64,000 bases of DNA from positions 37,966,759 through 38,030,758 of the forward strand of contig CAIIXF020000007.1 in NCBI GenBank assembly GCA_903813345.2, in the 5' to 3' direction. Within the stretch, counting starts at the first letter, position 1. Every line of letters starts with the position of its first letter. Below, in pieces: positions 14,970 through 60,640 of this stretch. Under the pieces are notes generated by a model. That model was not told the origin of the DNA. It saw only the letters and a list, made by a program, of their open reading frames with translations, and did not search any database. Made by a program: the position numbers and the translations under genes. The stretch is from Owenia fusiformis (Eukaryota; Annelida; Polychaeta; Sabellida; Oweniidae).

Positions 14970-15056
14970 CGCCAGCACGTTCAGGCTAGGCGATTGGGCG
15001 CTGTAACCATGAGGTTGCGAGTTCAAGATGCGTGTGCTCCTTGTGTTTATTCATTC
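14970..15056 (+). repeat. Possible tRNA-like (SINE-head) sequence
   Basis: GAGCGCCAGCACGTTCAGG followed ~40 bp later by GGTTGCGAGTTCAAGATG faintly resembles A- and B-box spacing of a tRNA-derived SINE. The B-box ends in T rather than C and no clover-leaf is evident. It directly precedes the 81-bp array, which may have arisen at its edge. Confidence 0.2.
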
Positions 15057-16190
15057 ATGTCTCCAACAGCAAATGATGACATTGTCGTGATTGGTCGCTT
15101 TGGCTGTAATTGGTGGCCCTTACTATTGTCTCTTTTCATGTCTCCAACAGCAAATGATGACATTGTCGTGATCGGTCGCTTTGGCTGTATTTGGTGGCCC
15201 TCACTATTGTCTCTTTTCATGTCTCCAACAGCAAATGATGACATTGTCGTGATTGGTCGCTTTGGCTGTAATTGGTGGCCCTTACTATTGTCTCTTTTCA
15301 TGTCTCCAACAGCAAATGATGACATTGTCGTGATTGGTCGCTTTGGCTATAATTGGTGGCCCTTACTATTGTCTCTTTTCATGTCTCCAACAGCAAATGA
15401 TGACATTGTCGTGATTGGTCGCTTTGGCTGTAATTGGTGGCCCTCACTATTGTCTCTTTTCATGTCTCCAACAGCAAATGATGACATTGTCGTGATTGGT
15501 CGCTTTGGCTGTATTTGGTGGCCCTCACTATTGTCTCTTTTCATGTCTCCAACAGCAAATTATGACATTGTCGTGATTGGTCGCTTTGGCTGTAATTGGT
15601 GGCCCTTACTATTGTCTCTTTTCATGTCTCCAACAGCAAATGATGACATTGTCGTGATTGGTCGCTTTGGCTGTAATTGGTGGCCCTTACTATTGTCTCT
15701 TTTCATGTCTCCAACAGCAAATAATGACATTGTCATGATTGGTTGCTTTGGCTGTAATTGGTGGCCCTCACTATTGTCTCTTTTCATGTCTCCAACAGCA
15801 AATGATGACATTGTCGTGATTGGTCGCTTTGGCTGTATTTGGTGGCCCTCACTATTGTCTCTTTTCATGTCTCCAACAGCAAATGATGACATTTTCTTGA
15901 TTGGTTGCTTTGGCTGTAATTGGTGGCCCTTACTATTGTCTCTTTTCATGTCTCCAACAGCAAATGATGACATTGTCGTGATTGGTCGCTTTGGCTGTAA
16001 TTGGTGGCCCTCACTATTGTCTCTTTTCATGTCTCCAACAGCAAATGATGACATTGTCTTGATTGGTTGCTTTGGCTGTAATTGGTGGCCCTTACTATTG
16101 TCTCTTTTCATGTCTCCAACAGCAAATGATGACATTGTCGTGATTGGTCGCTTTGGCTGTAATTGGTGGTCACTGTCTGTAACTACTCGT
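15057..16190 (+). repeat. 81-bp tandem array, 14 copies, open on both strands
   Basis: Fourteen units of exactly 81 bp begin ATGTCTCCAACAGCAAATGA and carry GACATTGTCGTGATTGGTCG. Unit length is a multiple of three and the unit lacks stops, so a 407-codon frame (14994-16217) reads through on the + strand as repeats of MSPTANDDIVVIGRFG plus a Trp/Leu-rich part. The minus strand is also open, in three blocks. Most differences change one residue (CN/CI/YN before WW, PL/PS after it) and most units lack indels. I see no promoter, intron structure or signal supporting expression. It is best read as a young minisatellite; a repetitive secreted or membrane protein is an outside possibility. Confidence 0.9.
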
Positions 16191-43964: not shown

Positions 43965-44629
43965 ATTTTATATAATTTGCTCATTACCTTGTATTAAGAC
44001 ATACCTGAGACAGACCCTTTGATTTACACCTGTATAATTACCTGAGAAACTGTGAATGTAATTCATATTGGAGTTACCATGGTAACATAGATGTCTACAA
44101 GTAGATCAGACATATAATATACAGTATACATGTATAGTACCATCAGTAAAAATTTCCCAACAATAAAGCATTATATTGGATAAAATATAAGTTTGAGTAC
44201 ATAACCCCCTCTCAGTCGATGGCTACTCATTAGGTTAAAGGTAAATTCATTAAAATATGGAATATTTAATCAAATATGTTATGAGGAATATTAATGATAT
44301 GTTCCTGGTGAAAATAAATTTTTGACAGGCTTGAAAATGATTGCATCTACCGAACTTGAGAATTTGTCTGCTAATGAAGCAAATGACGTTAATTTTCCAT
44401 AAATCGAAACGATAGAAGTATTGAATATATAAGGGGGAACTAGATGCTCGAATGATACACGCATACTGAATAAGGATACATACTTGATGTTCGAAACCTG
44501 ATAGGAAAAACAAAAAGTACAGCAATTAGAAAGATTTATGCAAACTTTAGTGGATAATGTAAATGGACACTGCGGGATATGGGCATGTTATTGACTGGCT
44601 AGCTAATGTAGAGGACATATGGCAGTATG

Positions 44630-57742: not shown

Positions 57743-57811
57743 CCCCCCTCTCTCAGTATTAAGCATGGAAAATGTAATTTTTAAATTCTTAAAATTCCCT
57801 CATGCTTCCAG

Positions 57812-57989
57812 GTAGTTCTATTCGAGGGATGGGGGCACGGTGCCGCAGTAGCCACAGTAGCGCTGCATCATCACGGTCCAACAGTCGCCTCAGTATAGAA
57901 GAGGAATCCTGCCTCTCTAGCCTCAACCTCACGGTTGATAAACTGAAGAATATAGACACTCCGGAGGCGTCTCATCTTTGCTCACTCAG
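57812..57989 (+). CDS. Gene model exon C: Ser/Arg-rich, start of a possible LRR
   Basis: An acceptor (CATGCTTCCAG) and a near-consensus donor (CACTCAG|GTATGT at 57990) bound 178 bp. The frame enters after two bases and exits with two left over. It encodes SSIRGMGARCRSSHSSAASS and RSNSRLSIEEES, a Ser/Arg-rich linker, then LSSLNLTVDKLKNID, fitting the leucine-rich-repeat core LxxLxLxxNxLxxI with Asp at the Asn place. A second LCSL follows 21 residues after LSSL, close to the 22-residue period of SDS22-type repeats. One repeat is thin evidence. It is the least AT-rich stretch nearby and the strongest coding signal in the window. The family is not identified. Confidence 0.7.
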
Positions 57990-58830
57990 GTATGTGACCA
58001 TTGTTCATTGTTCATTGTTTTTGTGAGTATGTTAACATTATTCATTTTGGTCATATCAGGTATGTTACCAGTGGTCATTTTGACTGAATCAGGTATGTGA
58101 CCAATGTTTAATCTGATTTATAATGTATGTTACCATTGGTCATTTTGATTGTGTAAGGTGTGTTTCATTTGTATCAGGTATGTAACCATTGGTCATTTTG
58201 ATTGTGTAAGGTGTGTTTCATTTGTATCAGGTATGTTACCATTGGTCATTTTGATAGTGTAAGGTGTGTTTCAATTGTATCAGGTATGTTACCATTGGTC
58301 ATTTTGATTGTGTAAGGTGTGTTTCATTTGTATCAGGTATGTTACCATTGGTCATTTTGATTGTGTAAGGTGTGTTTCATTTGTATCAGGTATGTTACCA
58401 TTGGTCATTTTGATAGTGTAAGATGTGTTTCATTTGTATCAGGTATGTTACCATTGGTCATTTTGATTGTGTACGGTGTGTTTCATTTGTATCAGGTATG
58501 TTACCATTGGTCATTTTGATTGTGTACGGTGTGTTTCATTTGTATCAGGTATGTTACCATTGGTCATTTTGATAGTGTAAGATGTGTTTCATTTGTATCA
58601 GGTATGTTACCATTGGTCATTTTGATAGTGTAAGATGTGTTTCATTTGTATCAGGTATGTTACCATTGGTCATTTTGATAGTGTAAGGTATGTTTCATTT
58701 ATATCAGGTATGTTACCATTGGTCATTTTGATTGTGTAAGGTGTGTTTCATTTGTATCAGGTATGTTACCATTGGTCATTTTGATAGTGTAAGGCGTGTT
58801 TCAATTGTATCAGGTATGTTACCAATGGTC
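57990..58830 (+). repeat. 53-bp intronic minisatellite repeating an AG|GTATGT junction
   Basis: Starting from the exon C donor, two sub-units of 33 bp (GTATGTTACCATTGGTCATT...GTGTAAG) and 20 bp (GTGTGTTTCATTTGTATCAG) make a 53-bp unit. It is regular from about 58130 to 58820. TCAGGTATGT occurs 15 times (first near 58056), in sense orientation. Each is preceded by TTTCATTTGTA, a modest pyrimidine-rich acceptor-like tract, so each junction resembles an acceptor fused to a donor. Confidence 0.9.
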
Positions 58831-58839
58831 ATTTTTTAT

Positions 58840-59560
58840 ATAAGGCATGTTAACATCATTAATTTTGATTATATCAAATATGCTACCAATTGTCATTTTA
58901 ATTGTATCATAGTATTATGTATCAAAATACTCTGAGTTATCTAGATTATTTCTGCTCACATGCAACCTACTCCAAATAATGTAGTATGCTAAAGTGCATT
59001 GATGTACATTTAATTAAATGGATTGAAATTGCTACAAAGGCACTTGCTGTTCTACTAATTATGGATCTCCCCTCGTATAAGTCCATGTCGTTGGTGATAT
59101 ATAAACTTAGAAGATATTTGATAGTTATCATGATCAAATTAAGAATGAGATAGATGATATCAACTGTAATTAAAATGATTTATCAATAGAATACTTATTG
59201 ATCTGTAAGCCCCCAATGAAAAATTCATATTCAAACAGATAAATACTACGATAAGAAAATAATTTATCGTGTTGAATGCATCGCATCTTATATTGGAAAG
59301 AAATATGGTCAGAATATTAAGTCACTAATTGTTAAGATTGAATAACATTAGAAGTCTCCATGACATGAAATCTAATCTGTATTATTTGATTATAGTAAAT
59401 TGCAATTCTCACATGGATTGGTTAAACGCTTACGTAATGTTGTGTTACTGGCGCTTTATGCTGCAGTTTTGGTAGTCAAAGTAAAAAAAAGTACTAAGAA
59501 AACGGAATCACACTCAAAGTGCAAGATAACTACCAGTAAAACCGGATATAGTCCAAGAAA
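58840..59560. other. No gene seen
   Basis: Intron-like sequence; the open frame at 59400-59597 runs into the next array and has no splice context. Confidence 0.45.
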
Positions 59561-59569
59561 TGGTGTAAC

Positions 59570-60640
59570 ACCCAATGTCTTAGAAAGGTACCAATAAAAT
59601 GGAAACACCAATAATCATCGAGAAGTACCAATTCAATGGATATACCCAAACTCCAAGAAAAGTATGAATAAAATAGATATTCCCGAAATCCTTGAAAAGT
59701 ACTTATAAAGTAGATACACCCAAAGATCTTGAAAAGTACCAGTAAAACGGATACACCTATAGTCATAGAAAAGTACTTATAAAATGAATTCATCCAAAGC
59801 CCTAGAAAAGTACCAATAAAATGAATACACCTATAGTCATAGAAAAGTACTTATAAAATGAATTCATCCAAAGCCCTAGAAAAGTACCAATAAAATGAAT
59901 ACACCTATAGTCATAGAAAAGTACTTATAAATGAATTTACCCAAAGCCCTAGAAAAGTACCAATAAAATGGATACACCTATAGTCATAGAAAAGTACTTA
60001 TAAAATGAATTCATCCAAAGCCTTAGAAAAGTACCAGTAAAACGGATACACCTATAGTCATAGAAAAGTACTTATAAAATGAATTCATCCAAAGCCCTAG
60101 AAAATTACCAATAAAATGGATACACCTATAGTCATAGAAAAGTACTTATAAATGAATTTACCCAAAGCCCTAGAAAAGTACCAATAAAATGGATACACCT
60201 ATAGTCATAGAAAAGTAACAATAAAACGGATACACCTATAGTCATAGAAAAGTACTTATAAAATGAATTTATCCAAAGCCCTGGAAAAGTACCAATAAAA
60301 TGGATACACCTATAGTCATAGAAAAGTACCAATAAAACGGATACACCTATAGTCATAGAAAAGTACTTATAAAATGAATTTATCCAAAGCCCTAGAAAAT
60401 TACCAATAAAACGGATACACCTATAGTCATAGAAAAGTACTTATAAAATGAATTTATCCAAAGCCCTGGAAAAGTACCAATAAAATGGATACACCTATAG
60501 TCATAGAAAAGTACCAATAAAATGGATACACCTATAGTCATAGAAAAGTACTTATAAATGAATTCATCCAAAGCCCTGGAAAAGTACCAATAAAATGGAT
60601 ACACCTATAGTCATAGAAAAGTACCAATAAAAAGATTACC
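59570..60640 (+). repeat. 74-bp (2 x 37) tandem array, ~14 copies
   Basis: Two related 37-bp units alternate: AGAAAAGTACTTATAAAATG + AATTCATCCAAAGCCCT and AGAAAAGTACCAATAAAATG + GATACACCTATAGTCAT. Occasional loss or doubling of a 37-bp unit (about 60217, 60327, 60509) breaks the alternation. Minus-strand frames are by-products. Confidence 0.9.

Follow-up and report, generated by a model that had tools for sequence, protein, structure and literature searches.

The intron that follows exon C of a phosphodiesterase gene in Owenia fusiformis opens with an array of repeated splice donors. In all likelihood, this array is a mirage-type splice-junction minisatellite that was duplicated from the exon-intron junction and is tolerated because splicing would normally use the first donor. 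It belongs to a genome-wide class of such arrays in this species, and most likely it came about as a by-product of prolific minisatellite formation and has been tolerated. The analysis started from a single stretch of DNA, here called the window (G000:C7:37966759-38030758, 64,000 nt in full length); positions without a contig name refer to it.

Exon C and its host gene

Exon C is a coding exon that begins in phase 1 and ends in phase 2, with the peptide (G)SSIRGMGARC...PEASHLCSLR. The next exon found (exon D) starts at C7:38036200 after TTTACTTTCAG, has the matching phase and encodes LRHLVRHIENDQVSKATLIQNLEYAASVLEKVYKDETR. The intron between the two is 11.45 kb long, and the array occupies its first 0.85 kb. 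Further downstream on the same strand, a PDEase_I_N exon was found at C7:38053777-38053959 (Pfam, E 1.2e-33) as the sole match of the genome search, and PDEase_I exons follow from C7:38067961 onward. Since exons of both domains lie on the same strand and exon C is in phase with them, the host gene is PDE1, a calcium/calmodulin cyclic-nucleotide phosphodiesterase. Exon C alone gave no match against Pfam or PDB, and no second copy of it was found in the genome, where the sole other match had an E of 8.3. The features of the locus are the following:

57810-57811, + strand: acceptor AG of exon C (CTTCCAG|GTAG...), read from the sequence, with the phase 1 frame open from there
57812-57989, + strand: exon C of PDE1 (178 nt), which belongs to the N-terminal region and precedes the PDEase_I_N exon (phase-matched junction)
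57986-57995, + strand: real donor TCAG|GTATGT, first array member, with 4 exonic and 6 intronic bases (motif count, 18-mer match, unit listing)
57990-58124, + strand: 5' edge of the array, older and diverged; two perfect copies of intronic TCAG|GTATGT stand at 58056 and 58089 (TRF period 33, unit listing)
58060-58092, + strand: free 33-bp unit inside the 5' edge (unit listing)
58125-58835, + strand: homogenised core of 53-bp units, each with a 33-bp part, which ends in AAG or a variant of it, and a 20-bp part, which ends in TCAG (TRF, unit listing)
58836-58935, + strand: decayed 3' edge of the array (TATCAAATATGCTACCAATTG and others), in which AG|GT is lost (sequence read by eye)

Organisation of the array

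The exact 10-mer TCAGGTATGT (TCAG|GTATGT) occurs 16 times on the forward strand of the window, once as the donor of exon C and 15 times in the intron. All copies lie within 57986-58819 (starts 57986 to 58810); an exact count over the 64,000 nt gave no further copy on this strand, and a single one on the reverse strand, at 44008. This count bears out the original prediction that the donor of exon C heads the array and that 15 intronic copies follow in sense orientation. That a fixed sequence stands in front of each copy was correct for most of them: exactly TTTCATTTGTA precedes 10 of the 15 intronic copies, or 13 of 15 if two bases may vary, whereas the first two (58056 and 58089) lack it.

TRF reported a 53-bp unit with 13.4 copies and 96% matches (58125-58835) and a 33-bp unit with 3.8 copies (58027-58149). 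According to a unit-by-unit listing, the 53-bp unit is composed of a 33-bp part, GTATGTTACCATTGGTCATTTTGATTGTGTAAG, and a 20-bp part, GTGTGTTTCATTTGTATCAG, the latter of which looks like the 33-bp unit minus its middle. The predicted unit length was thus recovered, but the second donor-like site AAG|GTGTGT, said to be carried by the unit, is confined to part of the units: AAGGTGTGT occurs six times, and AAGATGTGT, ACGGTGTGT, AAGGCGTGT or AAGGTATGT is found elsewhere. An in-frame microexon of 11 residues, extending in the 33-bp part from TCAG to AAG, was considered and rejected; it is open by eye in the frame of exon C, its length and openness correspond to chance, and AAGGTGTGT is present only in those six places.

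The relation of the array to the junction was assessed with the 18-mer TCAGGTATGTKACCATTG, which gave 17 matches at up to two mismatches compared with 0.01 expected from shuffles, and which is present at the real donor with 0 mismatches. As the real donor matches the unit over TCAGGTATGTKACCATTG, it belongs to the array. This supports the earlier proposal of seeding by duplication of the exon-intron junction, with the real donor as the first, slightly diverged member. The exon sequence inside the unit is limited to TCAG (4 nt): the last 50 nt of exon C showed no homology to the unit beyond it, and their alignment score was at the level of shuffled sequences (p 0.38-0.50). Because TCAG is all that is shared with the exon, seeding from the intron just behind the donor would explain the array almost equally well, and for the exon C array itself a duplication across the junction, with only 4 exonic bases shared, is what we infer.

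The array has features of a mirage in that it begins at and includes the real exon-intron boundary, carries AG/GT in its repeats and combines a concerted core with diverged edges. The 13 core copies that were compared diverge by 0.030 outside the donor motif. A DNA search of the 498-Mb genome, which may skip very common words, found the unit at no place outside the array, and the whole window gave no Rfam match at the gathering threshold.

According to the mirage explanation, a short segment reaching from the last bases of exon C into the beginning of the intron would have been duplicated in tandem. A unit of about 33 bp probably came first, and the 53-bp unit, made of the 33 bp plus a shortened copy of 20 bp, would have arisen later; the array would then have grown by ordinary minisatellite turnover. 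Exons commonly end in AG, so duplicating a segment that spans a donor creates AG|GT, and the apparent 'acceptor' would be a copied exon end. The spliceosome would normally take the first donor, which bounds the shortest exon, and with the first donor in normal use the later copies become intron and the array survives. The effect on PDE1 expression would be near neutral.

A genome-wide class of junction arrays

Genome pattern searches were carried out for three tandem CAGGTATGT or three tandem AGGTAAGT within set spacing, with the reversed motifs as controls. For CAGGTATGT, 132 + 71 matches were obtained compared with 36 + 7 for the reversed motif; for AGGTAAGT the numbers were 300 + 125 compared with 177 + 151 (425 versus 328), a much weaker contrast than for CAGGTATGT. 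Apart from the exon C array, 22 arrays were drawn from the matches listed, which comprised about a hundred of the 203 for CAGGTATGT and of the 425 for AGGTAAGT and came from contigs C1-C6. Among these matches listed, inspection placed the start at an exon donor in seven of nine CAGGTATGT arrays and 12 of 13 AGGTAAGT arrays, together 19 of 22. Junction seeding thereby extends from the single locus to the class, most members of which hold long copies of the exon end.

The exceptions were L024 (CAGGTATGT), which forms part of a larger cluster of repeats and has no visible exon at the start, L028 (CAGGTATGT), which starts about 90 nt downstream of the donor that ends a TBC exon, and L033 (AGGTAAGT), which is without an exon. 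The donor of L025 lies behind a stop codon and would therefore belong to a 3'UTR exon. Of the 19 donor-anchored arrays, 18 were measured, and in these the exon end within the unit spans 8-50 nt; the overlap table leaves out L042, which by eye shares almost nothing with its exon and resembles the exon C array in this respect. The largest arrays of the class reach up to 40 copies.

The exon calls rest on inspection. Peptides of 17 of the 19 exons were scanned (L035 and L042 were left out), and seven of them had a Pfam match with E below 1e-3 in a frame running up to the donor. The families were THF_DHG_CYH, tRNA-synt_2d, Muted, NIF, UDPG_MGDP_dh_N, UCH and FANCI_S2, the last one below its curated cut-off. 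The other 10 peptides, that of L040 included, had no match below 1e-3.

All 43 matches of reversed CAGGTATGT fell into eight control arrays, none of which begins at an exon donor (19/22 versus 0/8, Fisher p = 2.8e-5, with reversed CAGGTATGT arrays as the only controls). A reversed motif cannot be a donor, so this control addresses where arrays are located and not their donor content. Two of the eight (L054 and L058) begin 40-80 nt behind an exon donor, which indicates that arrays near exon ends are common in general.

These data also bear on the view that the exon C array is an ordinary intronic minisatellite whose donor-like motif came to lie beside an exon by chance, unlinked to the junction. 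The two control arrays and L028, which are found shortly behind a donor without containing it, would agree with it, as would the abundance of minisatellites: TRF arrays make up 26% of the window, with 35 arrays of three or more copies. However, the match of the donor to the unit over 18 positions, where 0.01 was expected, and the difference between the 19 of 22 arrays starting at donors among the matches listed and none of eight controls make such a coincidence extremely unlikely.

PDE1 itself contains a second junction array (L092, G000:C7:38070352-38070645), located at an exon of the catalytic domain and holding five donor copies. Its unit of 59 bp is made up of 48 exonic and 11 intronic bases; the exon ends in ...HYKWTMHLLEEFFRQ| and four further unit copies follow. 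Counterparts on the acceptor side were observed as well (L030, L034, L037, L117, L118 and L135), in which the intron end and exon start are repeated upstream of the real exon.

Frequency at exon edges of the phosphodiesterase family

To obtain a base rate, 40 exon ends were picked from 55 PF00233 matches before their flanks were fetched; two look-alike duplicates (L064 and L067) are among them. A junction array at the own donor was present at two of the 40 (L084 and L092), and a further one (L077) at a neighbouring exon. An automatic check for a near copy of the picked donor flagged four of 40 (L075, L084, L088 and L092) compared with an expectation of 0.75 when donors were swapped. A single copy was present in L075 and in L088, which were not counted as arrays; in L084 the automatically picked donor was wrong, and the array was read by eye.

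The 40 exon starts comprised those of 39 of these exons plus the PDEase_I_N exon. Three of them (L117, L118 and L135) lie inside an array of three or more copies. TRF arrays reach five of the 40, of which L125, a simple duplication at the exon start (2.0 copies), and L133 (2.4 copies of 11 bp) were not counted. In total, five of 80 junctions were hit. The unit lengths of the 35 arrays in the window sum to 2.4% of it, and 1.9 hits were expected by chance (p 0.04). The observed number is thus little above what random placement by a very active minisatellite process would give. A high rate of minisatellite birth together with tolerant splicing nearly suffices as an explanation, and a junction-seeking process is unneeded.

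Consequences for splicing

Over 18 arrays, the conservation of the donor motif compared with the rest of the unit had a mean rank of 0.518 (0.36 for the exon C array), and selection on the motif was rejected. The motif is intact in 263 of 348 copies in these arrays. Arrays found by an exact motif are biased toward conservation, and even so none was apparent. Selection for a spacing that preserves the frame was rejected too, with benign outcomes in four of 18 arrays: in the other 14, exon C included, splicing from the next identical donor would disrupt the frame or introduce a stop, and the distance to that donor is a multiple of three in six of 18, which is the chance share. This frame table (n=18) consists of exon C, 16 of the 19 arrays and L092, with L025, L037 and L042 left out. 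Normal mRNA in the 14 damaging cases needs either choice of the first donor or a recursive step that leaves no trace, so the first donor should normally win over the later copies. The donor copies have been neither kept up nor removed, and in this the array resembles neutral intron sequence.

A recursive step was part of the original prediction, which suggested that the array might supply recursive splice sites. Each TCAG|GTATGT would then act as an acceptor and subsequently as a regenerated donor, and the 5' part of the intron would be removed stepwise. The intron does provide 15 AG|GT sites, and such a step would be traceless, because joining ...CTCAG of exon C to GTATGT restores an identical donor. 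The pyrimidine content ahead of the array AG (0.625) is near that of the acceptor of exon C (0.69) but below that of the acceptor of exon D (0.81), and these values do not decide the acceptor question. Steps of 53 nt would be at or under the usual minima of intron length. The proposal is not supported, in view of several other observations: throughout the class the AG was copied from the exon end, another AG is found about 20 nt upstream in most units, every site is located in the first 0.85 kb of the 11.45 kb and not far inside the intron, and the donor motif is not preferentially kept. Recursive splicing at these sites is therefore regarded as very improbable.

It was also proposed that the copies serve as alternative donors or as decoys for U1. 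A share of PDE1 transcripts with a premature stop would then depend on copy number, and the array would work as a brake tunable by its length. This would be in line with 16 donors of identical 10-mer and with the finding that read-through from exon C into the intron reaches a stop 11 codons past the junction codon. Decoy donors or competition for U1 are possible in the array. However, the lancelet Adh, TnC and globin mirages reportedly neither disturb splicing nor yield aberrant mRNA, in the available text of two reports (PMC3087553; PMC3902484). With use of the next donor damaging in 14 of 18 arrays and a spacing at chance level, regular use should have been selected against, and the motif has been neither kept nor purged. 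Overall, regulation of PDE1 in this manner appears unlikely.

A second minisatellite is present in the same intron at 59569-60632. It has a 74/37-bp unit and contains 15 of the 30 sense AATAAA of the intron, which are possible sites of premature polyadenylation downstream of the donor array. A more far-reaching scenario would treat junction arrays, at a few per cent of exon edges, as kinetic elements of variable length: the 15 spare U1 sites of PDE1 would shield the AATAAA array from premature polyadenylation, and the length of the donor array would set the share of full-length PDE1. The basis of this scenario is position only, namely the 15 of 30 motifs in 59569-60632, and it is considered quite improbable.

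Relation to known systems and significance

The human interferon-induced 6-16 minisatellite resembles the exon C array in that its units carry donor sites in a transcribed gene. By the title of the report, the minisatellite provides multiple splice donors that belong to a transcript, whereas the intronic donors behind exon C are putative. The 6-16 gene is also named IFI6 or G1P3. Ratchet points of recursive splicing and the exon C array both have AG|GT juxtaposed in sense orientation, but in the exon C array the AG is a copied exon end, the spacing is short and there is no conservation. Known ratchet points are found in very long introns.

The closest relatives are the mirages of amphioxus, which in the available text of two papers are described for Adh3, the globins BflGb6 and BflGb9 and troponin C, with similar repeats in PGBD5 (PMC3087553, PMC3902484). 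In common with the exon C array, they are described there as minisatellite-like duplications across an exon-intron boundary, with AG/GT repeats, a concerted core and diverged edges. Both 5' and 3' boundaries are affected in amphioxus according to the same text (PMC3087553, PMC3902484), as they are in the Owenia class. The Owenia class differs in that it occurs in another animal, in many genes and with up to 40 copies, compared with 3 and 6 for the amphioxus globins in the available text (PMC3087553), and the exon C unit differs from the amphioxus mirages in having only four exonic bases. A model of intron gain, outlined in the available text of PMC3087553, proposes tandem duplication of segments that contain AG/GT. 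The founding event would be the same, but the copies behind exon C stay in an existing intron and no new intron is formed.

No mirages outside lancelets were found in a literature search of papers free of subscription. For earthworm metallothionein, repeats in intron 1 are described, and splice-junction repeats are not reported in the available text (PMC12783039). The mirage kind is known from amphioxus, and the exon C array is a further member of it; the literature searched contained no description of mirages as a common class in another animal.

The Owenia arrays extend mirages beyond lancelets. If the small sample reflects how common the class is, one genome offers a large natural library of exons, each accompanied by copies of its own junction, up to dozens in number and with the exonic context. 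Such arrays make it testable whether identical, closely spaced splice sites are chosen by position or by sequence, and for the tandem-duplication model of intron gain they supply raw material. The near-chance number of junctions hit is informative as a null, too.

Further repeat observations

The pieces of the Owenia genome that were fetched have a GC content of 34%. Three matches to the annelid linker-protein family Eryth_link_C exceeded the family cut-off, one of them interrupted by a stop. Within the window, an 81-bp array with 13.8 copies and 96% matches (15054-16169) is situated in a forward frame that is open over 420 codons, and long frames are present on the reverse strand as well; these frames probably just follow from the unit length being a multiple of three.

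The two control arrays close to donors were located at C2:14813950-14815400 (L142/L054) and C9:15222000-15228200 (L143/L058), starting about 55 and about 40-80 nt behind the donor, respectively. The start of the former adjoins a PhoLip_ATPase_C-like exon (E 3e-5, below cut-off). The latter has a unit with TACAG|GACAAGCTGG at its end and could represent an acceptor-side array that belongs to the following exon. Finally, the look-alike exon ends L064 and L067 (C1:33789539 and C1:33884791) lie 95 kb apart and share the same donor and the same intronic array, which is probably due to a recent duplication.
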